NCBI GenBank assembly: GCA_032622095.1 | Contig: CP136061.1 | Coordinates: forward strand, 47,375,797-47,439,796 | Length of the DNA stretch: 64,000 nt | Reading direction: 5' to 3' | Source: Siphonodentalium dalli | Lineage: Eukaryota > Mollusca > Scaphopoda > Gadilida > Siphonodentaliidae | Part shown: positions 5,380 to 64,000 of the stretch, piece after piece | Layout: each line of letters starts with the position of its first letter | How positions within the stretch are numbered: position 1 is the first letter of the stretch | The notes under the pieces: generated by a model | What the model saw: only the letters and a program-made list of their open reading frames with translations | The model's database searches: none | Told to the model about the DNA's origin: nothing | Made by a program: the position numbers and the translations under genes

Positions 5380-7716
5380 TCAAGTGGAGGCAGCGAGATA
5401 TCTTTTCTCACATTCTATCACATTGTTAATGAAGTATTTCACTAAGGATTCATTGGCGTATGTGAGATATTTTTTGAATGAGTTGTTATTCAGTAAGACA
5501 TTATTTTGGACAAACTCCAGCACCGATTTACCAGAAGCACACTCATCCAGTAAAGTGTCCAGATAATCCAATAGTTTTGTGTTTGGTCCTTTAAAATTTT
5601 GGAAGACAACGACCTGACTGAGACTGAGGGGATCTGGGTACACAGTCATGTGTATTTTCTGGAACATCAACGAGACAATGTATATCAATCCTATTGTAAA
5701 ACGTGTAAGTGATGCATGGGTTATCAAAATAATCGTCCCATTGCTGTTCAGTCCTTTGAGAGCAGCAAGAACGCACTGTAGTAAGTTTTGACTGCTGCTC
5801 AGCTCCTCCATACCAGTTGCCGGGAGATCCAACGTCAAGTCCATTAAAACAACAGAAGCATCTGAAAAATTCTCAATATTGAGAACATCTTCTATTTTGA
5901 AACAGTGACAGCATTTCGCTAATTCAGTTATCAATGTTTTGTCGATTCTATAACACAACACACATTTAGAATCACTATCACTATCAAAGCATTCTGATGA
6001 TAAGTTAAGAATTGAGACGAGCAAATGCAGACCGTTTAGTTTATTCCTCACAATTTGATCCGACTTCGCAATGAATTGGCTTTTAGTTGTCAGCTCATAC
6101 AAATGACTCAAAAGTCTTTGGTTACAGAACTTTGAACTGTGAATAATTGTAATTGGAGACCCACATATGATATGCCATGGTAAGCTCACATGGTCCAATG
6201 AACACGCGTTTTCATCAACACATAAATATGCATGAGTGGTCACATCAGCGTCAAATTCATAATTGTATGTTGGCATTTCATTAACCTTTTCCGCCCACTC
6301 TTTCTTATCAAATCTCTTCTTGAATGAGCCACTATGAATGTTGTCGGCTCTTTCGAGCTGAATTTCTTTATGCCTTAATATACAATGTGTTTTCTTCATC
6401 CATCTGTGTTTGACAACTGTATCACATTTCCGTATTGGCACTAGAGCATATCTATCAAAGAACTGATAGGACGCCTGCTCCCTCTGTTTGTCTATCTCTG
6501 CTTTATCAGCATCACTCATTGTCATAAATCGCCTCAGATTTGACTTGATCGTCTCAGACTGTAGATTTTTGAAATACGAACAGCAAGCCATGTGTTCATC
6601 CAAGAAATCCGAAGGAATTTGATCTTTTGATAGTAAAGCCCTGCTACATTGTGAGGCGGTAAAGTACATATTCACCAATTCAGCTACTCGGTCCGTATAT
6701 CCACGATACCCTTTACAAACAACATATACCTCAGAATTCCCAGGCTTACTACTTCCTGGTTTGAAAACAGTAACTTCATCAAAACAACAATTGAGAATCA
6801 ACATCAGAATGATGGTTTCACACTCGTACATAGTAAACAACTTCAAAACAAATGAGCCTTGTTTTGATAGCAGCTGTAGCGTGAGCAGAGTTTCACAGTA
6901 ATGTAGATGTGACACTATGCCTTCCTGTTCCGCGGGGTTGTCCTGACAATCTATACTGCCATCTGCTGTTATAAGCATGATCCCAGCATCCCGTTCAGGG
7001 CCCGTTGTTTTACTGTGTGTGACTGTCTTCATACCGAATTTTGACCGTACACATCTGATGACACCATTAACGTTTGCAGTGTTGAGCAAATTCCCGGTGT
7101 TATCCTCGCAAAAATACCAATTTTCTAACGTGTCCTTAATGAATCTGTCATCATTAACCATTTCCGTCAGATTATTGCCCTCGTAATACGGGTTTAATGT
7201 TACACCCATCCAGTCCCATGAACCACCATAATTATTGCTGACTAGGAAATGATTCAGACTCGTGACGAAGGCCCCAGGTGCCTCGCACAAATGCAGAGTG
7301 TTCAAGCTGCTCAGCGACAAATCAATGATTCCAAATGACGAAACAATTTCATAGAATTTACACCATGCACCAGTACACAGTTCTGGATGAATGAATTTCT
7401 TGACATCACCGACAACTTGTCCTGCAATGTTAGTGAATTGAGTATGCTCATGCCATTCTATGATTTCTTTGTCGTTCAACTCACTCTTTAACTTGTTCAG
7501 CTCCTCCTTGAATTTCATGGTAACATCTAACAACCATCCCCTCTGTGTTTTGGCCTTCACCAAAATCTCATCTGTATTCTGTAATGTGGTGTATGAGAAT
7601 TTCTTCTCATATACGTTCCAGACTTCTACCTCTTCTCTTGTAAAGTCATGTTCAGAAACATTTCCAGAATCGACTCTCTTTCGTTTCTTCTCCATATCAA
7701 TTAAACTAGCAGACAT
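5380..7716 (-). CDS. CMTR2: Cap-specific mRNA (nucleoside-2'-O-)methyltransferase 2
   Basis: A single 778-residue ORF, close to the 770 residues of human CMTR2, which is also encoded by one coding exon. The enzyme uses S-adenosylmethionine to methylate the 2'-O of the second transcribed nucleotide, turning cap 1 into cap 2. The Rossmann-type catalytic domain shows the SAM-binding motif CEAPGAF at residues 144-150, then NPYYEGNN (176-182) and ADGSIDCQ (251-258). The FVLKLF segment at 289-294 and NSEVYVV at 327-333 follow. K120 (in AWCKFYEI), D252, K292 and E329 fit the K-D-K-E tetrad of this family, so the catalytic domain looks intact. The C-terminal part (about 400-760) corresponds to the degenerate second methyltransferase-like region. 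A Lys/Arg cluster (KKRKR, residues 10-14) could be nuclear targeting. The first Met (7716) is taken as the start; Met8 is an alternative. No frameshift is visible. Confidence 0.97.
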   Translation of the reverse strand: MSASLIDMEKKRKRVDSGNVSEHDFTREEVEVWNVYEKKFSYTTLQNTDEILVKAKTQRGWLLDVTMKFKEELNKLKSELNDKEIIEWHEHTQFTNIAGQVVGDVKKFIHPELCTGAWCKFYEIVSSFGIIDLSLSSLNTLHLCEAPGAFVTSLNHFLVSNNYGGSWDWMGVTLNPYYEGNNLTEMVNDDRFIKDTLENWYFCEDNTGNLLNTANVNGVIRCVRSKFGMKTVTHSKTTGPERDAGIMLITADGSIDCQDNPAEQEGIVSHLHYCETLLTLQLLSKQGSFVLKLFTMYECETIILMLILNCCFDEVTVFKPGSSKPGNSEVYVVCKGYRGYTDRVAELVNMYFTASQCSRALLSKDQIPSDFLDEHMACCSYFKNLQSETIKSNLRRFMTMSDADKAEIDKQREQASYQFFDRYALVPIRKCDTVVKHRWMKKTHCILRHKEIQLERADNIHSGSFKKRFDKKEWAEKVNEMPTYNYEFDADVTTHAYLCVDENACSLDHVSLPWHIICGSPITIIHSSKFCNQRLLSHLYELTTKSQFIAKSDQIVRNKLNGLHLLVSILNLSSECFDSDSDSKCVLCYRIDKTLITELAKCCHCFKIEDVLNIENFSDASVVLMDLTLDLPATGMEELSSSQNLLQCVLAALKGLNSNGTIILITHASLTRFTIGLIYIVSLMFQKIHMTVYPDPLSLSQVVVFQNFKGPNTKLLDYLDTLLDECASGKSVLEFVQNNVLLNNNSFKKYLTYANESLVKYFINNVIECEKRYLAAST

Positions 7717-28599: not shown

Positions 28600-29631
28600 C
28601 ATCCAAGCAAGATAAACCTGAACAACTTGGGAAATTGACTGAGCTCAAAAACATCGAATTAAAAAACCCCGACACCGATGAAACTGTCAAACTACGGTCT
28701 GAAATTCTGACCAAAGACCGGGAACTCAAGAAAAGAGATAAAGAAATATGTAAACTTTCTTCACAACTAGAGAAAGTCAACAGGGAATTAGTAACATCTA
28801 GAACCTACATCGTCACCTTAGAAAAAGATAAGCTAGAGCTACAACACTCCCTCATGCAAGATCAGGAGTTCAGAACCATCCATTGAAACTCATAAACCTT
28901 CAAAAAAATCTGATGCTCAACAGCCAACTGATGTACACTCCATGGAGAAGATATCGACAGACATGAAGCTATGGAGCTTAGAACACAGAATGAGGCAACT
29001 TGAACTTGAAATAATGAAACAATCAACATGTACCCACCGACATCCTCCACTGGAATCTCACTCTGAGAACACGGAGACGACGTACGAAAACCACGTAAAT
29101 AACACCGCAGAGTTCAACTCCACGAACTTATTTACTAAACGCAAACATATTAGTAACCATCAGAATCACGAGATCGCTCGAAGTGATAAGATCACGCAGC
29201 CATCAACGCCTAGACCAAAATCCTCTGAAGACGGTAACCAACGAAACAATGATACCCTGGCAACATCCCCTCCAGATGAGAATACCCTGCGAGAACCACC
29301 AGGTAAACAGAAACCTAACAACACCGTACCCATCTCTAAGCAGTCTTTTTTAGGGGATCGCCAACATCATCGGCCACCTCGACTAAGAAGACGATACCAG
29401 CAAGCTCCAAAACACATGATGTGGAATCAACCACCACCTTGGACATATCCACCTCAACTAACAGCACCACTGCTTCCAACATTACCACCCCACCAGCACG
29501 GAAACTGGATCCATCATGCTCCTCCAGTTCAAATGAGAATACAGAGCTCACCCTTACCTCTTACAATGTTGAAGGTCTTACATCCAATGGCGAGTATCTA
29601 CAACAACTTGCGACCAAGACAGATGTTATAA
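28600..29631 (+). pseudogene. LINE ORF1-like region (coiled coil, then low-complexity linker), frameshifted
   Basis: The first part (28635-28886) is charged and heptad-like (LRSEILTKDRELKKRDKEIC, then LSSQLEKVNREL), consistent with the coiled coil of LINE nucleic-acid-binding ORF1 proteins. At about 28865 the reading frame shifts. The continuation (28942-29631) reads SLEHRMRQLELEIMKQST and then a Ser/Thr/Pro/Asn-rich linker with basic PPRLRRRYQQ. No RRM or zinc knuckle is evident. The tail of this frame overlaps the start of the endonuclease frame. The region probably once formed the N-terminal part of the element's proteins. Confidence 0.6.
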
Positions 29632-30248
29632 TCGCACAAGAGCACTGGTTATATAACTACGAAACATGGAAAATTGAAGACCTACTTGAAAACTTTAATG
29701 CTGTCGTGAAATGTTCGGACGACAACGATATTGTTCTCCCAAATCATCGCTTCAGAGGGGAGGCTGGAATCGCGGTATGCTACCGGAAAAACATCGCCCA
29801 ATACGTGGATGCTCTACCGGACGGGGGAAACCGAGTAGCTGTAATACGGATAAACGCAGAAAACCCAGTGGTCATCATCGGCGTTTACCTACCAAGCAGA
29901 AATAGTAACTATACCAGAAACGACTATAATGCTCTCCTTGACGAGCTCATGACTATCATCCGAAAATATAACTCATCGTCCCATATAATCTTGGCGGGAG
30001 ACGTCAATGCATCACTACATAGGACATATGCCTGTACCCGGGATAACGACTTCAAGAAGTTCCTCGATGAGGCCAAACTGACTTTGCCCTCAACCTGCTC
30101 CAGTGAGCCAACCTACCACTCATATGACAATGTAACACACACACAAATAGACTACTTTTTCCAGTCACAAGATACCATTGGAAAGTACCAAACGCTCAAG
30201 AGAGAACTATCAACCTTTCAACTCATGATCCCATCACCGCAACTATAA
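29421..30248 (+). pseudogene. LINE AP-type endonuclease domain
   Basis: ORF of 275 residues. After a Ser/Thr-rich leader it shows the exonuclease-endonuclease-phosphatase fold signature: LTSYNVEGL (about residues 45-53), DVIIAQEHWL with the metal-binding Glu, VVIIGVYLPSR, HIILAGDVNASL with the catalytic D-x-N, and THTQIDYFF near the end. This domain nicks target DNA to prime reverse transcription. The frame is lost at about 30225, and translation continues in frame +2 (NHDPITATINLQL) into the reverse transcriptase ORF, so endonuclease and RT were one protein. A +1 or -1 indel is the simplest explanation. Confidence 0.88.
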
Positions 30249-30379
30249 ATCTTCAACTTAAAACCATCCAAAACATAGTACACCCACAGGGACCCGGGAA
30301 AAGAAGAATCAACTGGCGTAAAATTGACACAGGTCTATACTGTACCCATGTCACTGAAGCCCTAGTCAACTCTGCGATA

Positions 30380-32989
30380 ATGAATACCGATGATGCTACA
30401 ACGGAGACGCTGGTTTCAAACTTTACATCGGTACTGAAGGAAGCCGCTCAGCAACAATGGAAGTCCAAACCCAGCAAACCATTTAAGCCAAACAGGATCT
30501 GGTCACCACTCATCACCACGGCTGTTAAAGATGCCAAACACACCTTCTGGCCATGGAAGCAAGCAGGACGGCCAGATGGAAACAACCCGCTGTACCTCAA
30601 CGTCAAATCCAAAAAAAAGCAGCTACGAAGTCTAAAAAGAAGACAGCAAGCTACCATCCGAACCAACAAACTGTCCGAGATCATGGAACTGCGAGAAACC
30701 GACGTAAAGGCCTTTTACCGGCTCATCAAAACTCAGAGCGACCCGAGAGCAAGCGGTACTACTCTCCTAACAGTAAAAGAAGAAATCCTAAAGACAGATG
30801 AAGAAATCACTAACGGATGGGCCACCTACTTTGAGGACCTATCAACCCCGCTCGAATCCACTAACTTCAACGACCAATTCAAAATTCTCGTGGAAGAAGA
30901 CATTGATGTTCTTACAAAGACACTAACCAAAAATCGAAGGCACATTCACCCAACAACTCCCGATGAAGTAGCTCTGTGTATCAAGTCCTTCAAATCTGGC
31001 AAGGCACCTGACGAAGATGGAATCACAATGGAACACCTAAAATATGGAGGAGAAATATTAAACTCACATTTATGCAATATTATCAATAAAATATTTCTGG
31101 AAGCCAAGATCCCAGACTGTATGAAAGGTGGAACAGTTTGCCCAATATACAAAAAAGGAGGGAAACCAAAAGACGATCCCAACTCATATAGGAAGATCAC
31201 CATCACCAACACAATCGGAAAGACTATCGAAAAACTCCATCTGAAAAGAAACAATGAGGCAGTAAAATCCATACAGTCACCCCTTCAGAAGGGATTCACA
31301 GAGGGAGAATCCCCTACCACCGCAGCCCTTATAATAACCGAGTTAATATACGAAGCAAAAGAACTAAAGAAACCACTATACATGGTCTTTATGGATGCCA
31401 AAAAAGCATTCGATGTCGTCTGGCACCCCGGATTACTGAGAGAACTACATAAAGCTGGAATATCCGGTGATAACTGGCTCCTCTTCAAGGACTGGTACTC
31501 CAATCTGCACTCTACTGTCAACTGGAATGGTGCATCCTCGCGATCCTTTTTGGAGAAACAAGGTGTCCGTCAAGGGGGTGTCTGGTCACCTACAGCCTAT
31601 AAGGTTTTTGTCAATGGATTACTGACCCAATACAGTGAACATAACATCGGCTCTCATATTGGCTCTATCTTCTGTGGATCGCCAACCGTTGCTGACGACG
31701 TCACGCTCGTTTCTGAAGACCCAAATGAACTACAAGTCATGCTGAATATCTTGACAGAGTACTCCAACAGACTGCGCTACCTCATCAGCGAACAAAAATC
31801 ATGTATTTTACCATTTACCCATAAAGATCTGGGCCACACATGGACTCTGAATGACAATAATATCCAGACAACGGCCACCGCCACACATCTTGGCATTACT
31901 CGTGACAACACGTCCAAACACGGCACCAGCACGGTTGCACACGAACGTATCTCTTCTGCTAGAAGATCATCATATGCATTGTTAGGCGCAGGATTTCATG
32001 GTATGAACGGGCTAAATCCAAAAGTCTCGGCCCATCTACTGCGATGCTACATTCTTCCTCGCCTACTGTATGGTTTAGATGTCATAAACCTTAACAAGAA
32101 GGAGATGCATCAACTGGAAACTTTTTATGTACAGACAGCAAAGCGTCTACAACACCTACCTACAAGAACAGCCAACTGTGCAGCTCTACTCACATTGGGT
32201 CTTATTCCACTAGAGGCAGAAGTACACAAGAGAACCCTGAAAACCTATGGGAATGTAGTACGGAATCAAGGATCTATTGAATGTCAACTAGCCGCCAGAC
32301 AACTTGCAGTAAAATCTGGAAAATCCAACAGCTGGTTCATTAAAGTCACCAATCTCACTGAAATGTATGACCTACCATCAACACACGACACAGTAGCACT
32401 ACCTCCTCCAAAACGTTTATGGAAAATCATGGTGGATACTGCAGTAGATTCCCACTGGATGAAAATTTTGAAACAGGAAGCCATGGGAAAATCAACTCTA
32501 TCACATCTCAACCTTCAAGACGCCACCCCTGGCTCCGTACATCAAATTTGGGATGCTTGCGGGTCTGAACCGTTCGCCACTACCAAGGCTACCTACAAAA
32601 TGAAAATGGCTACAGGCACCTATATTCTCCAACGGCAGAAAGCCAAATTTTCCTCTACCAACACAGATATCTGTCAACTATGCGACAAAGAACCTGAAGA
32701 CATGGTCCATTTTATAACAACATGCGACAGTCTCAATGAAGTCAGAAAACGTTTTATAAACGCTATTGAAGAAACCCTGAGCCAAGCTGGTCTGAACCCA
32801 TCTCTACAAAATCAACAACTACTGAAATTAATACTCGACTGCTCAATATACAATATTCCACATGACTGCATGCAGAAGATAGAAGCTATATCACGAGGTC
32901 TGTGCTACCAACTTCACCAAGCTCGACTCCGTATCCTGACTGCAAAGAAACTTGGTCCCAAAGCTCCGCCTGTGGACCCCGGCAGTTAG
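30380..32989 (+). pseudogene. LINE reverse transcriptase with C-terminal finger, 869 residues
   Basis: Long intact ORF, but cut off from its endonuclease by the upstream frameshift. RT blocks are in order: GTVCPIYKKGGKPKDDPNSY and KGFTEGESPTTAAL, motif A FMDAKKAFDVVW (about residues 336-347), motif B GVRQGGVWSPTAYKV (about 394-408), and motif C VADD (about 437-440; the usual Tyr is Val). Further on is LGITRDN. Near the C-terminus CQLC followed by HFITTC forms a Cys-Cys-His-Cys finger found in several LINE groups. It copies the element RNA at the nicked target. The codons look unremarkable. The first Met is arbitrary because the true protein began upstream. Confidence 0.92.
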
Positions 32990-48985: not shown

Positions 48986-50690
48986 AATACATGGATAATT
49001 TTGGAGATCTGTTTCAAAAGGAAACTTACCCGGGAATGCCTGCTCTGTTGGTGGGGCAAACAGCGAAGAAGACATTTGCAAAATGTGGAGTGAACACTAC
49101 CGAGATATATTTAGTAAAAGCAAAGAAGATATAACACAGATTAGTAATATTCACAAGACTGTTGAATGCTCAGATATACACATCTCCCAACAAGATGTTA
49201 CAGATGCTTTCGGAAAATTAAAATCAGGAAAATCTGCAGGGTCAGACGATATCATGCACGGCATTTCATCTAAAACTGTGCGATGATTATATTAAAGGCT
49301 GCCTACAGTTGTTATTCAACGCGATGTTGAAACATGGTCACCTTCCACCAGATATGCTGAAAGTGACTCTGGTACCTGTACTGAAAAACAAAACAGGTAA
49401 TATTTCCGACAAAGAAAACTTTCGCCCAATTGCATTGTCATCTACAATCTCAAAGGTGCTGGAAATGATTCTGCTCACCAAATGTTCTGATTGTTTATAT
49501 ACAACAGCCAATCAGTTTGGTTTTAAGAAAGGCCATTCAACAGATGGATGCGTGTTTGCATTAAAGGAGGTAATTCGACATTATATTTCCAAAGACACAC
49601 CAGTTTTCGTGTGTTTTCTTGACGCTAGCAAGGCGTTTGATCGGGTAAACCACAAAACGTTGCTGGAAATCCTGGATCAGAGATCTGTACCACCTGAACT
49701 CACCAGAATTCTTAATGATTGGTTTCATAACCAAACATATAACGTGCGCTGGGGACAATGTTTCTCAACTGGCTTCAAACCTAATAGTGGCGTTAGACAA
49801 GGCAGTATTTTGAGTCCCGGCCTACTTATTCAATGTATATACAAACTCGATCAGCGAGAGACTGAATGCATGCAATGTCGGTTGTGTTGTTGGTGGGGAG
49901 ACCATCAATCATTTATGTTATGCTGATGATATGTGCCTTATTGCCCCCTCGTTAGAGGGATTGAGACGTCTGTTGAGAATATGCGAAGAAGAAGCCTATA
50001 ATATTGATTTGGCATACAATGCAAAGAAGACCCAGGGGATGGCCTTTATCCCAAAATCCCTACCCATTAGGACATTTCCGAAACTCTTTCTGGTAGGAAA
50101 TGAAATTAAATTCGTTTCCACCTTCAAATATCTGGGACATATTCTCAACGGCGATCTTTCTGATGACAATGATATAATGCGCCAATACAGATCAATTTTT
50201 TCCCGGTCAAATATTCTGATCAGGAAATTCTACAAATGTTCTTCTCATGTTAAAATGTACTTATTTCACATGTTTGTATCTCCTCTATACTGTGCTCACC
50301 TTTGGGTGAATTACACCAAACGTTGTTTTAATAAGTTAACAGTATGTTTTAATAATGCATATATGAAGTTAATGGGATATGAAAGAGCGTGCAGTGCCAG
50401 TGGAATGTTTGTGAATGACAGAATGTGTTCGATTTCAGTGTTAGTGCGCAAGGGTGTGTATGGGTTCCGAGAGAGAACGTCTAATTCTACAAATAAGATA
50501 CTATATGCCATTTATAATTCTGATTTGTTATTCAGCTCATACTTATTTCGTCATTGGAATAATCTACTTTATATGTAATCTTTAATATAATCTCTATTAT
50601 AATGTTACATATGTATGCTAAATTGTGATATAATATATGGGCGCTTTATGCCTGATTCAAAATAAATAATAAAATAATAATAATAATAAT
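48986..50690 (+). mobile_element. 5'-truncated LINE inserted in the MITE
   Basis: Starts inside a degraded linker (about 49010-49080) and proceeds through a reverse transcriptase broken into three frames to a 3' end with a TAA/TAAT microsatellite tail (AATAAATAATAAAATAATAA). 5' truncation plus a simple-repeat tail is typical of LINE insertions. The six bases GCTAGT of the target appear to be missing at the junction, so a clean target duplication is absent. Confidence 0.85.
49083..50578 (+). pseudogene. Broken LINE reverse transcriptase
   Basis: Three frames cover one RT. 49083-49286 encodes the fingers lead-in (FGKLKSGKSAGSDDI). 49309-49926 has FRPIALSSTISKVLEM, QFGFKKGHSTDGCVFA, motif A CFLDASKAFDRVNHKTL and motif B GVRQGSILSP. 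After a frameshift near 49815, the frame ending at 50578 carries motif C YADDMCLIAPS (49919 on), FKYLGHILNG and a C-terminal region ending HWNNLLYM. The catalytic motifs are readable, but the frame is broken at least twice, so it is non-functional. Sequence style fits the CR1/jockey side of LINE diversity; clade not assigned. Confidence 0.88.
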
Positions 50691-51113
50691 CAGTGAGTGG
50701 CGTGAGTTTACGCCCCGTATCAACATAATTTTTTACACGATCATGTGTGCCACGCCTTGCTCAATCCAATATTCGTGAATTATTTTTGATTACGTCTTGT
50801 ACACGGAAATTCGTAATTTAATTTAAGGCTCCAGCCATGAATTCAATTTATATAAAATTATTAACTTTGATTTTAAGATAAAATATTAACCTGAATGTTT
50901 ACAGAATACATCTTTGACTGAAATTACTTAGTTTTCATTGTATTATCGATATTAGATCATTGTTATCACTGGGAATTTATTGAAAATGGCGTAGTGTACC
51001 CCTTTAAGAATCTGTTGATATTAAAGGGTTAGGTTCAATACAGTCATTCAGAGTGCCCGAACCAACTTGTTCTCTTTCAAACTTGTTATGAATATTAAAG
51101 AAATTAATCTGAC

Positions 51114-51217
51114 CAATATTAATAACGTAAATAATATAAATACACTCTCAGAGCTCACAAATACACAATATTAATAACGTAAATAATATAAATACACTCT
51201 CAGAGCTCACAAATACA
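51114..51217. repeat. Perfect 52-bp tandem duplication
   Basis: The unit CAATATTAATAACGTAAATA through CTCAGAGCTCACAAATACAC occurs twice head to tail (starts 51114 and 51166) without visible differences. The identity inside otherwise decayed LINE sequence suggests a recent local slip or an assembly artefact. Confidence 0.85.
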
Positions 51218-51337
51218 CAATTCACTGATGATAACCATTGTTCGTCTTCAGATAAAAACTACACGGTTCACTCGATGAATCCGAATTTGTCAATCGGAGT
51301 TGATAGAAAAGAGTTAGAACCAGTACACATAGACTGA

Positions 51338-51820
51338 TTAAAGGGCCGTTAGTCACCGATTATTTTTTTTTATAGTGCCTTGATATACGGTTTTAATAAC
51401 AATATATGCATATGATTCAAATAATATAATTCATCACCATTTGGAACTTATGTGTCTCATATATAAGGTGCCCATAGAGTAATAGAAAATAGCTGAAATC
51501 ATAAAATCATGTCCCCCCGTTATGGCTCCCATAATGCAACATAATTCAAACTATAGTTTATTTTCAATGGAAGGGGAATAACTCTATATCTAAACATATA
51601 GAGTTATACCCCTGCCATTGAAAATATATGACTCTGTGCATAAACTTGATCACAGACCAGACGCTAGTTTCTCAATAAAAACAACATGTTCACAGTTTAT
51701 TACATCGAATAAGTTGAAAATATAATGTTTTGGAGCTTACTCTTTCAAATGGTATATATATACTATGTGATATATTTATATAATGTGATCTTGGGGTTTG
51801 AAAATTAAGTGGGCCTTTAA
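51338..51820. mobile_element. TTAA MITE of the GGCCCACTTAATTTTC family, inside a LINE remnant
   Basis: TTAA at 51338-51341 and 51817-51820 flank the insert. The right end is GAAAATTAAGTGGGCCT; the left end is eroded (AGGGCCGTTAGTCACCG). The interior is colinear with 43501-43926. Confidence 0.8.
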
Positions 51821-52630
51821 ACAAACTTATTTTATTTCAAAAATCTTTCTGAAAACGAAGAAAACATTCAGAATACTGCGCTATCAGAGCTCCCAATAAT
51901 ACATTCCGAGGCTGCTACTTCTATTCCTAACCACTGTCTATCTATATGTGATGCACATGTACACAGCGACGTATCGTTTGAACAAGATTAATCATTATTA
52001 GTAACTGTAACAGAATCTCTGCTAAAATTCACATGTTTAAATATATACAAAGTATACAAAGCAAATTGAATCTTGTTATTCGTTAATCATAGTGTCAAAA
52101 CTTTGATATGATTTGCCTCAGTGAGACTAAGACAGGTTCTATTGATCCTAATGATTTTACAGGGTTTAAACCTTTTACCATGACAAATAACATACACCCC
52201 AATTATCTTGCATGGTAGCACACACCTATATTTTGTAGTTTCCGTACATTCCGCATGAAGCATAAGTACACAATGATGGTGAAATCTTTGGCTATATTGC
52301 AGAGGATATCCTTACTTTAAAATCCACATTGGATTGTCCTGTCATTATGATGGGCAATTTCAACAGTCGTACAGGCAGATTGGATGATATTGAGATAAAT
52401 AATGACACCTCTATTCACAAGTATCAGCGCTATTTCATCACATGATGAGTATATTGAGAATAATCTTATAGCCCATGGATTGTCTAGATTTCGATGTAAC
52501 AGAGATACCGTTGTTAATAATAGTGATCGCAAATTGGTATGCCGAGCGCAAGAAATGTTGTTTCTTAAGTAATGGTTAGAGCACAAGAATTGTTCTTTAC
52601 CAGAATCAATCGAGTCGGAGATATTGTTAT

Positions 52631-53892
52631 ATGCAGATGACTGACATTTTCGGCTTTGTGAAGGACTGCTCCCTTTATAATTATGCAGACGATAACACAA
52701 TTTCCTTCTCTCACAAGGACCCTGATGTAGTTCGGAGCACTCTGGAATCTGATAGCCTTCATCTCATTGAGTGGTTCGCACTAAATGGCATGAAGGCAAA
52801 TCCAGAGAAGTTCCAAGCAATATCATTGGGTCCCAAAAGTAAATCTATAACTGGCATAAATGCTTCACATCTTATCCCATGTATCGAGGAAGTGAAATTA
52901 CTCCCTATAACTCTGGACAGTAAATTGACGTTTAACACTCACATTGATTCGCTATGTTCAAAGGCATCAAGGCAGCTAAATGTCTTAAAGAGACTTGGAC
53001 ATATGCTGACCCTCTCAGGCAAAAAATGTATCTTCAAATCTTTCATCCTCTCAAATTTTAATTACTGCCCTCTTACCTGGCATTTCTGCAGTGTGTCCTC
53101 TACGGACAGGCTGGAGAAAATTCAGGAGAGAGCCTTTCGTTTTATCTATAATGACTACACATCTGATTATGACTTTCTCCTAAAGATTGCAAACTGTGAG
53201 CATCTACATCTCCAAAGACTCAGACTTATGGCACTCACAGTTTTCAAAATACTAAAGAAGGACATTAGCACTCCTTCCTATTTGGACTGCCTGGTGAAAC
53301 GTAAACAATAGTTCATACTCTTTTAGTAATTCTGAGACTCTGGAACTGCCATCACCTGATACTACTACTTTCGGTTTAAGCTCGTTTAGATTCATGGCAC
53401 CTAAAGTGTGGAATTCTCTTCCAGAGTCATGCAGAACCGCAGAGACGATGAAAGACTTTGAATGTATGTTACAAACCTGGAATGGTTTTAAATGTAAATG
53501 CAGTGCCTGTAGGATATCCTAATTATATGCATATGTTTTGTATTTTAATCCGCACTCTCTGGTCAGGTATCTCTGAATGGAACAAAACGTGTTATCCAGG
53601 AATGAAATATGGACTCGTTGTGCACATTACTGTGCCGTATATGAATATACAAATTTGTGTCTTACGCTTTTGATCCAGTCAGGGCTACCTGTCCTCAGGG
53701 ATTTTACTCGTCTTTTACAAAGTTTTAGCTAATATACATGTTATTTATTTTTCAGATAGGTTGTGTTTTATTCACGTTACTGTTTATGTACATATTCATT
53801 GTTTTACAAGTCAGTTAAGAGCTTAATGCTCATGTTTGTAATTTAAAATGCCTGACTTTATAAATAAAGCTTTTGAACTTTGAACTTTGAAT
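52631..53892 (+). pseudogene. LINE reverse transcriptase C-terminal half with 3' end
   Basis: The ORF 52631-53311 begins at the RT motif C block (LYNYADDNTISFSHKD), then EKFQAISLG, DSKLTFNTHIDSLCSKASRQ, LSNFNYCPLTWHFCS and LEKIQERAFRFIYNDY. After a frameshift it continues to APKVWNSLPESCRTAET (about 53397-53450). The element ends at 53892 with TTTGAACTTTGAACTTTGAA. The upstream half is missing and replaced by the endonuclease remnant. The YADD...NYCPLTWHFCS style is typical of CR1-like LINEs. Non-functional. Confidence 0.87.
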
Positions 53893-58805: not shown

Positions 58806-59089
58806 AATTAAGCTAGGTATGTTCCCACATGCACACCTTGAATGCGGTGCATGGGTTCTTTGAAAAATCAAACTAAGGATTTGGTTGCAGCTGAGACGAA
58901 CGCAATGCGAACCAAACTGTTTGGTTCTATATTGGTATTTGGTTCTCCGGTGAACCAAATTGGGAGCTGTTTTCTTGGAGTGTATGTAACACCAAACTGT
59001 CATATATTCACTAATGCTCTTCGGAAAGGGGGGCCAATAAAGTATCGCCACCGTCCTCGCCTGACCATAATCGCCATCATTCTTCTCCT

Positions 59090-61535
59090 CATCACCATCA
59101 TCTAATTTTCACCACCATCGTCCTCGCTTGACCATCATCATAATCATCATCATCATCACCATCACCACCATCGTCATCGCCTGACCATCATCATAACCAT
59201 CATCATCACCACCATCGTCATCGCCTGACCATCATCATAATCATCATCATCACCACCATCATCCTCGCCTGACCATAATCATAATCATCATCATCATCAT
59301 CACCACCACCATCGTCATCGCCTGACCATCATCATAATCATAATCATCACCACCATCGTCATCGCCTGACCATCATCATAATCATAATCATCACCATCAT
59401 CATCCTCGCCTGACCATCATCATAATCATCATCATCATAATCATCATCACCATCGTCCTCGCCTGACCATAATCGTCATCATCATCATAATCACCATCGT
59501 CCTCGCCCTCGCCTGACCATAATCGTCATCATCATAATCATCATCACCACCATCATCGTCCTCGACTGACCATAATCGTCATATCATAATCAGCATCACC
59601 ACCATCGTCCCCGCCTGACCATAATAATCATCAGCATAATCATAATCACCACCATCGTCCTCGCCTGACCATAATCGGCATCGTCATCATAACCACCATC
59701 GTCCTCGCCTGACCATAATCGTCATCATCATAATCACCATCACCACCATCGTCCTCGCCTGACCATAATCGTCATCATCATAATCATCATCACCACCATC
59801 GTCCCCGCCTGACCATAATCATCATCATAATCATCATCACCACCATCGTCATCGCCTGACCATAATCGTCATAATAATCATCATCATCACCACCATCGTC
59901 CTCGCCTGACCATAATCGTCATCATCATAATCATCATCACCACCATAGTCCTCGCCTGACCATAATCGTCATAATAAATCATCATCATCACCTGACCATA
60001 ATCGTCATAATCATAATCATCATCACCACCACCGTCGTCCTCGCCTGACCATAATCGTCATAATCATCATCATCATCATCACCACCATCTTCCCCGCCCC
60101 ACCATAATCGTCATAATCATCATCACCACCACCACCGTCCTCGCTTGACCATAATCTTCATCACCATCATCATCGTCCTAGCCTGACCATAATCGTCATA
60201 ATCATAATCATCATCACCACCATCGTCCCCGTCTGACCATAATCGTCATAATCATCATCATCATCATCATCACCACCGTCGTCCTCGCATGACCTTAACC
60301 GTCATAATCATAATCATCATCACCACCATCGTCCTCACCTGACCGTAATCGTCATCATAATCATCATCACCATCATCGTCCCCGTCTGACCATACTCGTC
60401 ATAATCATCATCATCATCACCACCGTCGTCCTTGCCTGACCATAATCGTCACAATCATCATCATCATCACCACCGTCGTCTTCGGCTGACCATAATCGTC
60501 ATAATCATCATCATTGTCATCACCATAGTCCTCGCCTGACCACAAGTGTCATCATCATAATCATCATCACCACCATCGTCCTCGCCTGCCCGAAAGTAAG
60601 TGAAAGATAATCACCACCATCGTCCTCGCCTGACCATAATCGGCATCGTCATCATAACCACCATCGTCCTCGCCTGACCATAATCGTCATCATCATAATC
60701 ACCATCACCACCATCGTCCTCGCCTGACCATAATCGTCATCATCATAATCTTCATCACCACCATCGTCCCCGCCTGACCATAATCATCATCATAATCATC
60801 ATCACCACCATCGTCCTCGCCTGACCATAATCGTCATCATCATAATCATCATCACCACCATAGTCCTCGCCTGACCATAATCGTCATAATAAATCATCAT
60901 CATCACCTGACCATAATCGTCATAATCATAATCATCATCACCACCACCGTCGTCCTCGCCTGACCATAATCGTCATAATCATCATCACAATCATCATCAT
61001 CATCATCACCACCATCTTCCCCGCCCCACCATAATCGTCATAATCATCATCACCACCACCACCGTCCTCGCTTGACCATAATCTTCATCACCATCATCAT
61101 CGTCCTAGCCTGACCATAATCGTCATAATCATAATCATCATCACCACCATCGTCCCCGTCTGACCATAATCGTCATAATCATCATCATCATCATCATCAC
61201 CACCGTCGTCCTCGCATGACCTTAACCGTCATAATCATAATCATCATCACCACCATCGTCCTCACCTGACCGTAATCGTCATCATAATCATCATCACCAT
61301 CATCGTCCCCGTCTGACCATACTCGTCATAATCATCATCATCATCACCACCGTCGTCCTTGCCTGACCATAATCGTCACAATCATCATCATCATCACCAC
61401 CGTCGTCTTCGGCTGACCATAATCGTCATAATCATCATCATTGTCATCACCATAGTCCTCGCCTGACCACAAGTGTCATCATCATAATCATCATCACCAC
61501 CATCGTCCTCGCCTGCCCGAAAGTAAGTGAAAGAT
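59090..61535. repeat. CAT-rich minisatellite, 2.4 kb, with a roughly 0.93-kb internal duplication
   Basis: Variable units of about 45-65 bp: CACCACCATCGTCCTCGCCT, GACCATAATCGTCATCATCA, TAATCATCATCA. The block about 59643-60607 is repeated as 60608-61535 with the same order of variants, and both end in the unique phrase CCCGAAAGTAAGTGAAAGAT (starts 60589 and 61516, 927 bp apart). The second copy lacks one subunit. No ORF of note. Confidence 0.95.
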
Positions 61536-61579
61536 AAATTTAAAATCTATACAAAATTTAGAAGATATATAAAAAAATA

Positions 61580-61690
61580 AAAGCCAGGGTCCGTAACAGC
61601 CGGGGTCCGTATAAGCCAGGGTCCGTATGAGCCGGAGGTCCGTAAAAGCCAGGGTCCGTAAGAGCCAGGGTCCGTATCAGCCGCATACCA
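61580..61690. repeat. 18-bp tandem repeat AGCCAGGGTCCGTA
   Basis: About six units of roughly 18 bp, AGCCAGGGTCCGTAAA / AGCCGGGGTCCGTATA, immediately after the CAT-rich array. Both strands stay open across it, but only as short ORFs. Confidence 0.85.
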
Positions 61691-62578
61691 TCATCACAAA
61701 CAACAATCGTCGTCTTCAGCACCGTAACCACCACCATCTTCATCCTCGTCTCGTGATCATGATTTTCACCATCGTCATCATCGATCATAATCGTCATTTA
61801 CCCATTTGTGTTCTGGGTGCCTGTAAATGTAAAGTTCATTATATTAGACCACGTGATAAGCCAACAAAATGACGCTCGTGTGTAAAGTATATTTCATTCT
61901 TCCTATTTTCGTCCAAATATCAATATAAAATCAAATCATAAACAGATCAACACCGCTACTGTCTTTAATTTAAAGTAACATAAAGTAATGTCTATAGTAA
62001 ATATTAAAAAAAAATATAAAAAAAAAAAAATATCGATTCATTTGAATAATTTTTTATTAATAATCAATGATTTTAAACCGTCGATTTAAATCTGCCAACC
62101 CTGATTTTCAGGCACCGTCACCAAACGAGGTACATAATCCCCTTATACCGTACATTTGGCACCCAATGAGTGTATACCATTACATCAGTGAAACATCGCC
62201 AAAGGCGACGTTTCTAAATTAGAAACATTATATAAAATATAATTATCTTTGAATTAGCATGGCTGCTTGGTTAACATTATGTTTTTTTGCTGAATTCGCA
62301 CTAATTATCCGTACAATCAAACCATGTTGTGCCTCTAACGACAAATGCGTTTACGAACTAAAAAGAGTCTAATATTAGTCAAAAGATGATCATATAAGTG
62401 TAGGATAGTCACTGTGGTTAATTATGACTGTCACACGAGGTGACTCGTTCGCGTACGTGCATGCTTGGGTTGAGGAAACTAAGTACATCATCGATATCAA
62501 CCCTGAAAACTGCTAGCCAATTAATGGATGATTGTGCAGACTCATGTGAATGATGATTAATTTGGGGTTGGGAGTCAA
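61691..62578. other. Upstream region of the Met-rich gene
   Basis: AT-rich, largely single-copy by eye, with poly-A runs near 62008-62030. It contains no supported exon. Enhancer or promoter sequence for the gene at 62662 would be expected here, but apart from the TATA box I cannot point to a defined site. Confidence 0.4.
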
Positions 62579-62585
62579 TATAAAT
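62579..62585 (+). promoter_or_regulatory. Candidate TATA box of the Met-rich gene
   Basis: TATAAAT lies 83 bp before the ATG. Transcription would start near 62610-62617, where CTTTTCCAATC gives a weak initiator-like pyrimidine/A context. The 5'UTR would then be about 45-50 nt with no intron. Confidence 0.5.
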
Positions 62586-62661
62586 TAAGAACACCCAGTT
62601 CGTCGCCCACTTTTCCAATCATAAGAGAGGAACCCGGGTTCGCGCGCGCCACACGAACAAG

Positions 62662-64000
62662 ATGAACACGAGGATATCGTCTGCCGTTTTGTTATTGTGT
62701 GTGGTCGGTGCTGTGGCGGAGCTTGGCTCTGACATTGGCGGTCTATTGACCAAATTAATAGGAATTAATATGCTTGGTTCAGGAAATGGTGTCTCCTCCA
62801 TTGTTGGCTTGTCTCTCATCGGCGATAACGACGATGGCCATTCCATCCTTGGCGACAACCCTCTGATGTTGCTGCTGTTGGCTGGAGGGATGGGTGGAGG
62901 GATGGGTGGAGGCGCAGCAAGGGCGCAACCTGTGATGATGGCAGCTGCGCCAACCTTGGTCCAGACACCCATTATGCCAGCTTTCGCGTCTGCAAAACCG
63001 ATGAAAATGGGCTCAGCTGCCATGATGAAGCCAGGACTAATTGGCGGACCTGGAATGAAGGGCGGACCTGGAATGATGGGCGGACCCGCAATGATGGGGG
63101 GGCCTGGAATGATCGGCGGACCTAGAATGATCGGCGGTCCTAGAATGGTGGGCGGGCGTGGAATTATGCGCGGGCCTGGAATGATGGGCGGACTTGGAAT
63201 GATGGGCGGGCCTGGAATGACGGGCGGACCTGGAATGACGGGCGGACATGGAATGATGGGCGGGCCTGGAGTGATCGGCGGGTCTGGAATGGTCGGCGGT
63301 CCTAGAATGGTGGGCGGGCGTGGAATTATGCGCGGGCCTGGAATGATGGGCGGACTTGGAATGATGGGCGGGCCTGGAATGACGGGCGGACCTGGAATGA
63401 TCGGCGGGTCTGGAATGGATCCTTGGCTGGGCGGAACGTCGATGAACCCGTTTTTCATGGGATTTGACGGCATGCCAGATATGATGGGATTTGACGGCAT
63501 GCCAGATTTCGGAGGCGATTTTTTTCCATCCGGAGCCATGCTGCCTCCAATGGGGGGTCCCATTATGGGAGGACCATCGATGGGAGGGCCACCAATGGGA
63601 GGTCCCATTATGGGAGGACCATCGATGGGAGGGCCACCAATGGGAGGTCCCATTATGGGAGGGCCATCGATTGGAGGACCCATCATGGGAGGGCCTCCGA
63701 TGGGACGTCCGGCCATGATGAGAGGACCCACGAGACCGCTCCCTCCAGTTATGAGTCCAGGTATGACATCACGACGAGGTGGCATACCACCGATCGGAAG
63801 ATCGGGCAGTCTGATGATTCCGAGGAACGACAATTTTGGAATGAATTTTGGAAGATCGGACATGTTTGTGGACGGTATGGGCGGGTTCACGGATAACTTG
63901 ACACCAGACTTCGGGATGGACATGGGAATGCCGGACATGGGAATGCCGGATATGAGAATGCCGGATATGGGAATGCCGGATATGGGAATGCCGGATATGC
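62662..64000 (+). CDS. Secreted Met/Gly/Pro-rich repeat protein, partial at the right edge
   Basis: An open frame of 446 codons with no stop before the window ends. The start (AACAAGATGA, A at -3) is followed by a signal peptide MNTRISSAVLLLCVVGAVA, with likely cleavage after Ala19. Residues 20-120 are mixed (DIGGLLTKLIG, NPLMLLLLAGG). Residues about 125-265 are tandem GGPGMMGGPGMI-type hexapeptides. After FMGFDGMPDMMGFDGMPDFG comes a second array of GGPIMGGPSMGGPPM (about 300-350), then an Arg/Pro-containing stretch. The visible end is GMPDM pentapeptides. Met makes up about 76 of 446 residues (about 17%), and there is one Cys, in the signal peptide. Composition and secretion fit an extracellular structural protein such as the Met-rich or Gly-rich matrix proteins of mollusc shell, periostracum or byssus. 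No named family is assigned, and the role is inference. Confidence 0.9.
   Translation, partial: MNTRISSAVLLLCVVGAVAELGSDIGGLLTKLIGINMLGSGNGVSSIVGLSLIGDNDDGHSILGDNPLMLLLLAGGMGGGMGGGAARAQPVMMAAAPTLVQTPIMPAFASAKPMKMGSAAMMKPGLIGGPGMKGGPGMMGGPAMMGGPGMIGGPRMIGGPRMVGGRGIMRGPGMMGGLGMMGGPGMTGGPGMTGGHGMMGGPGVIGGSGMVGGPRMVGGRGIMRGPGMMGGLGMMGGPGMTGGPGMIGGSGMDPWLGGTSMNPFFMGFDGMPDMMGFDGMPDFGGDFFPSGAMLPPMGGPIMGGPSMGGPPMGGPIMGGPSMGGPPMGGPIMGGPSIGGPIMGGPPMGRPAMMRGPTRPLPPVMSPGMTSRRGGIPPIGRSGSLMIPRNDNFGMNFGRSDMFVDGMGGFTDNLTPDFGMDMGMPDMGMPDMRMPDMGMPDMGMPDM

Follow-up and report, generated by a model that had tools for sequence, protein, structure and literature searches.

Gene A, which runs across the edge of the window (the whole 64,000-nucleotide stretch of DNA that was analysed), is a genuine gene for a Met/Gly/Pro repeat protein encoded on the plus strand. 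It is placed beyond chance by a diverged downstream copy, hereafter copy B: the frame and both ends of the protein are kept in this copy, the insertions and deletions separating the two coding sequences are multiples of three, and dN/dS is below one. A chance open reading frame was rejected on these grounds. The two copies probably encode a secreted structural protein, most likely an insoluble scaffold in a mineralised or sclerotised secretion, of which shell matrix is an example; we infer secretion, self-assembly, tissue and material of the product from the properties of the chain.

Gene A and its downstream copy

The coding sequence of gene A (62662..64000, plus strand, running beyond the window) is a single exon encoding 451 amino acids. 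As stated in the preliminary description of this DNA, the frame is open for 446 codons from the ATG at 62662 to the window edge. The extension to a stop codon that had been proposed there was carried out with the genome sequence beyond the window, and a TAA was found at C1:47439811-47439813, after 451 codons. A protein search of the whole genome assembly (2.2 Gb in nine contigs) located copy B on the same strand, 16.8 kb downstream, with its start at C1:47455240 and 520 codons open. The edge of the window had hidden both copy B and the true end of gene A. Homology between the copies begins approximately 0.5 kb before the start codon and reaches approximately 2 kb past the stop, and the duplicated unit is therefore a few kb in length.

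The protein begins with a putative signal peptide of about 19 residues (62662..62718, plus strand), for which inspection of the start (MNTRISSAVLLLCVVGAVA/E) identifies a basic n-region, a hydrophobic core and an A-x-A cleavage motif. The n, h and c regions can be recognised by inspection in both copies, and the A-x-A motif is retained in copy B (A-V-A / A-M-A). The start is thus signal-peptide-like, as noticed earlier, and the protein is probably secreted. A unique N-terminal region follows (residues 20-123; 62719..63030, plus strand). The three successive repeat grammars of the preliminary description were recovered with Tandem Repeats Finder as tandem arrays of 18, 45/15 and 15 bp, besides a minor 12-bp array at 62879-62912.

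Repeat block 1 (63043..63417, plus strand) comprises 20.8 copies of an 18-bp unit encoding GGPGMM, and a longer run of these units occurs twice within the block. It is followed by a unique spacer, MDPWLGGTSMNPFFMGFDGMPD... (63415..63546, plus strand), which is acidic and Phe-rich, includes the sequence DPWLGGTSMNPFF... and differs by one residue in copy B. Repeat block 2 (63547..63714, plus strand) has a 15-bp/45-bp unit, GGPIMGGPSMGGPPM; the array was called as 45 bp x 3.3 at 63543-63692, or alternatively with a 15-bp period. A basic linker (63715..63909, plus strand; 11% Arg, pI approximately 11) connects this block to an acidic C-terminal tail of GMPDM repeats (63910..64000, plus strand), for which the array call is 15 bp x 5.5 at 63918-63999. 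The tail ends past the window with the five C-terminal residues that the window lacks, PGGMF. The 520 amino acids of copy B present the same order of parts. Alignment of the two proteins indicates that their repeat blocks differ in length through gain and loss of units, and that units of the block 1 type are also found inside block 2 of copy B.

Residues 1-122 of gene A, used as a query against the assembly, gave matches at E values up to 10 to gene A and copy B only (six candidates, all of them scored); as the search scores the best candidates of a sequence with gaps, a third copy may have escaped it. The whole-genome protein search returned 176 matches, most of them weak and on other contigs. 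Seven weak-match stretches were examined, two of them in part, and all proved to be tandem minisatellites in which two or more frames stay open over long distances; a wider repeat family is unsupported by these seven further stretches out of the 176 matches. As minisatellites also match, a repeat score alone proves nothing, and it is the comparison of A with B that carries the proof.

Some of the matching arrays are of note in their own right. Matches extend over about 100 kb at C6:214.85-214.95 Mb, where a tandem array of short units can be read without stops over very long distances in several frames, one of which gives a Met/Pro/Cys repeat; it is probably satellite DNA. Two related short-unit minisatellite arrays on another contig (C2:71983500-71988500 and C2:72132000-72135000) are open in several frames on both strands, and one of these frames contains 26% Met. 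The latter pair is a caution against taking Met-rich repeats for genes.

Constraint and the choice of coding strand

Both the protein and its promoter are under constraint. For the 239 aligned non-repeat codons of A and B, dN/dS is 0.42 (bootstrap 0.23-0.85), with dS of 0.122 and dN of 0.051; these codons correspond to gene A residues 1-122, 252-302, 366-425 and 443 onwards, limits that were chosen after the alignment was seen. The ratio becomes 0.39 when the whole alignment of 420 codons is used. When the DNA was aligned freely, all 11 of the indels in the coding sequence proved to be multiples of three, a count that overstates selection because many of them look like whole repeat units, which are in frame by virtue of their length. 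The corresponding figure for the flanks is 8 of 25, made up of 1 of 4 upstream, 5 of 9 in one downstream stretch and 2 of 12 in another; the proximal promoter has no indels.

The proximal promoter (62382..62578, plus strand) aligns without gaps between the copies and is identical at 187 of 197 positions. Identity is lower in the stretch preceding it, at 162 of 197 (p 0.0001), and in the one immediately after the gene, at 480 of 536 (p 0.03); the limits of promoter and flank stretches were set post hoc from the alignment. Identity in a more distant downstream stretch is 642/711. A TATA-like box, TATAAATTAAG, lies at 62579..62589 on the plus strand, 83 bp before the ATG, and differs by one base in copy B. 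The conserved promoter is visible solely through the comparison of the two copies. Gene conversion between A and B would also lower their divergence, and may contribute to the dN/dS, indel and promoter figures. The pair offers a natural comparison, in which the same ends and promoter are kept while the repeat blocks grow and shrink; the constrained parts are the unique N-terminus, the acidic Phe-rich spacer and the C-terminal end, and not the repeat count.

Just upstream of gene A, the window contains a long C-rich minisatellite (catcatcatcaccaccatcgtcctcgcctgacc...) at 59000-61700. The GC skew in this region is -0.51 at 60001-62000.

Opposite gene A, an antisense frame of the PPIIPG type (62619..63938, minus strand; 439 amino acids) is open, as is the minus frame of copy B. 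It had been taken for a shadow produced by the repeats, and we do not put it forward as a gene. The minus frame pairs third codon positions with third positions, so that its stops, which appear on the plus strand as TTA, CTA and TCA, need a plus codon that begins with TA or CA and hence specifies Tyr, His, Gln or stop; the gene A protein has no Tyr, two His and two Gln. Gene A itself has a single minus-strand stop, at its 3' end. It was recoded synonymously 1000 times, and 45.8% of the recoded sequences under its own codon usage, or 31.4% under uniform usage, did not exceed this number. The same test on copy B gave 28.2% and 30.8%, respectively. The open minus frame therefore needs no explanation of its own, and the shadow interpretation stands, recoding having left the frame as open in 28-46% of trials.

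That a frame is open is not enough to tell which strand is coding. Were the minus frame the gene and the plus frame its shadow, the open minus frame in both copies would be expected, and its dN/dS of 0.58 lies within the bootstrap range of the plus frame and is not clearly distinct from it. When the minus protein is recoded instead, the plus frame likewise stays open, in 70% and 52% of trials for A and in 13% and 29% for B. What decides for the plus strand is the signal-peptide-like start and the conserved promoter: these and the conserved TATA box are all found upstream on the plus strand, and the start of the minus frame in the window shows no hydrophobic core on inspection. An antisense gene is consequently hardly credible, and the plus-strand repeat protein is the product considered below.

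Composition of the chain and its probable material

Over the whole gene A protein the composition is 28.2% Gly, 17.1% Met and 12.6% Pro, the Met content agreeing with the earlier estimate of about 17%. The mature chain has 29% Gly, 18% Met and 13% Pro, and that of copy B 34% Gly, 20.2% Met and 15% Pro; the pI is 6.1 for gene A and 4.3 for copy B. The sole Cys of the gene A protein is located inside the putative signal peptide, and Lys and Arg are few in the chain. AlphaFold2, run on the single sequence, returned a mean pLDDT of 38.5, with 408 of 446 residues below 50 and helix confined to the first 75 residues; this suggests a disordered chain, a one-sequence fold prediction being weak evidence on the point. 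A search of PDB sequences with the gene A protein gave no match at E 0.1. The Pfam scan of gene A returned a sole match, to extensin (PF02095), which was rejected as a low-complexity match far below the cut-off (22.6 bits versus 105).

The chain properties can be assembled into a tentative mechanism. The signal peptide would take the chain into the secretory pathway, from which it could be exported as a disordered polymer, the Gly/Pro repeats blocking stable folding. Evenly spaced Met residues may let neighbouring chains make flexible hydrophobic contacts. The two acidic parts, namely the spacer and the GMPDM tail, alternate with the basic block and linker and could form charge contacts or bind calcium. 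Chains associating with one another in these ways would build a network. The mature chain lacks both Tyr and Cys and can therefore have no internal dityrosine, DOPA or disulfide links; any covalent links would need Lys, Met or partner proteins. What Met- and Gly-rich domains do in the proteins of shell matrices has been called enigmatic in print. With a chain free of Tyr and Cys, the insolubility of Met-rich matrices becomes directly testable with one protein.

The preliminary description had drawn an analogy with Met-rich proteins of mollusc shells. The analogy is apt in composition and layout, and such proteins are better known than was implied, as NU-5, LMP, MRNP34, GMP_LOTGI and CLC_12027 illustrate. 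The sequence of gene A is new and its kind, that of Met-rich matrix proteins of shell type, appears to be already known, the likeness being one of composition and layout. A literature search with six repeat strings gave no match in text, where strings in figures or supplements would escape and where three of the six do not occur literally in A or B. The Met contents of these low-complexity proteins, 17.1% for gene A and 20.2% for the mature chain of B, may be set beside the 7-18% of the published examples in the sources covered.

The closest parallel in layout among the Met-rich shell proteins would seem to be an abalone protein, CLC_12027/idb_54497 of Haliotis laevigata, which is uncharacterised and is discussed under the major shell proteins (PMC6003135). 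As described in the part of that source consulted, it resembles gene A, whose own signal peptide is putative, in having a secretion signal, predicted disorder and G/M/P-rich repeats around [GMPG/MXn]; unlike gene A, it is listed with a transmembrane segment, the two being compared by description only. The gene A units GGPGMM, GGPIMGGPSM and GMPDM are absent from the descriptions of this protein in the same part of the source (PMC6003135). GMP_LOTGI from the shell of Lottia gigantea, with 20% Gly and 18% Met, is extracellular and partly disordered, as is proposed for the gene A product, in the portion of the report covered (PMC4094399). It differs from the products of A and B in its pI of 11.24, versus 6.1 and 4.3, and in its 12% Ala and 10% Leu, with no Pro richness listed in that portion (PMC4094399).

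In the insoluble shell fraction of Pinctada fucata, a Met-rich region is common to most of the identified proteins, and knock-down of NU-5 leads to disturbed nacre tablets, according to the sections consulted (PMC7591529). NU-5, LMP and other proteins of this species share with gene A their Met-rich regions, in some cases many prolines, and a proposed role as scaffold; NU-5 departs from it, by description, in its mass of approximately 180 kDa and its Glu- and Ser-rich parts (PMC7591529). Again by description, the Pinctada protein MRNP34 is similar to gene A as a Met- and Gly-rich nacre protein. Three shell proteins of Haliotis asinina are reported with 7-11% Met, and the nacre of Laternula yielded M- and G-rich peptides, in the portions of these reports that were covered.

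The same chain properties could conceivably serve a soft or adhesive product with no mineral, such as mucus, a tube, an egg capsule, a byssus-like thread or a cuticle, and the sequence contains nothing that demands a mineral. Cross-links through Tyr and Cys are usual in adhesives and threads, and the mature chain has neither residue. Silk-like repeat proteins are known from many tough secretions, as the literature sampled records; the closest published descriptions found of G/M/P repeats behind a signal peptide, in the sources as far as covered, come from shells. A soft or adhesive product is thus possible but doubtful, and the scaffold of a mineralised or sclerotised secretion is preferred. 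It is improbable, too, that the product is a lineage-private polymer with a repeat grammar of its own in a poorly sampled lophotrochozoan. Since Tyr and Cys are both missing from the chain, the cohesion of its material would then come from Met contacts or from sulfilimine-type Met-Lys cross-links.

Abductin of the scallop hinge ligament is, like the product proposed for gene A, a Gly/Met-rich disordered structural chain in the part of its description consulted (PMC13052691), and the ligament protein LMP of Pinctada fucata is Met-rich in the corresponding part of another (PMC7591529). The abductin described there has GGFGGMGGGX repeats, very little Pro and conserved Tyr and Cys (PMC13052691), whereas gene A has 13% Pro, no Tyr and Cys in the signal peptide alone, so that the mature chain is free of both. 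Identity with abductin was rejected on these features. The hinge ligament is moreover a bivalve structure, and an elastomer that is functionally abductin-like appears distinctly unlikely as the product of gene A.

The block 1 consensus has Gly at each third position, and GGP-GMM could accordingly be read as Gly-X-Y, with the blocks forming a collagen-like triple helix. Substitutions within the block do not respect this pattern: in gene A the two obligate Gly positions are replaced in 2/20 and 4/20 units and the non-obligate Gly in 0/20. The corresponding counts for copy B are 2/16, 1/16 and 0/16, taken over its first 16 units because the six-letter reading loses register afterwards. Block 2 has a period of five, and the gene A protein has no Pfam collagen match at E 0.001. 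Collagen was rejected, uninterrupted Gly-X-Y being broken at 6 of the 40 obligate Gly positions of gene A block 1, and a triple-helical product is very improbable. The probable scaffold of a mineralised or sclerotised secretion remains the preferred reading of both copies.

Further observations in the window and the assembly

Searches of the assembly gave no match to the hemocyanin domain PF14830 or to the annelid linker PF16915, in both cases without a positive control. The APGWGK pattern had no match in the genome, and its reversed control was likewise empty. The tyrosinase domain gave six matches in the assembly. A tyrosinase-domain protein at C1:162.34 Mb has a Cys-rich N-terminal stretch and C-terminal GYD repeats.

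Exons of a muscle-type myosin heavy chain occur in several clusters, at C4:274.2-275.5 Mb and also at 158, 172, 221, 223, 288 and 291 Mb. One of these exons is found at 11 places within a single 1.3-Mb stretch (one copy translated), an unusual expansion for muscle myosin. A query of 160 residues of the muscle myosin, made by joining two exons, had its best PDB matches at 260 and 254 bits, which we take to be squid and scallop, followed by myosin-7 at 237 bits, presumably the human protein. Muscle myosins of annelids or brachiopods are, as far as can be judged, absent from these matches, which agree with a lophotrochozoan, molluscs included, without singling out a phylum; a mollusc is plausible. 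A kinase exon of the arginine-kinase type has as its nearest matches two long chains, of 716 and 718 residues, under the names taurocyamine and arginine kinase; we assume these to be from a fluke and a sea anemone, and the exon therefore does not narrow the phylum. Pieces of rDNA are scattered, and in one stretch an 18S fragment is followed by a 28S fragment.

Within the window, an intronless open reading frame of 778 amino acids on the minus strand (5380-7716) contains an FtsJ methyltransferase domain and is presumably cap-methyltransferase like. Several open reading frames resembling LINE proteins are located at 28942-32989 and 49309-53311; a Pfam reverse-transcriptase domain was identified in one of them, and another was scanned without such a domain being detected.
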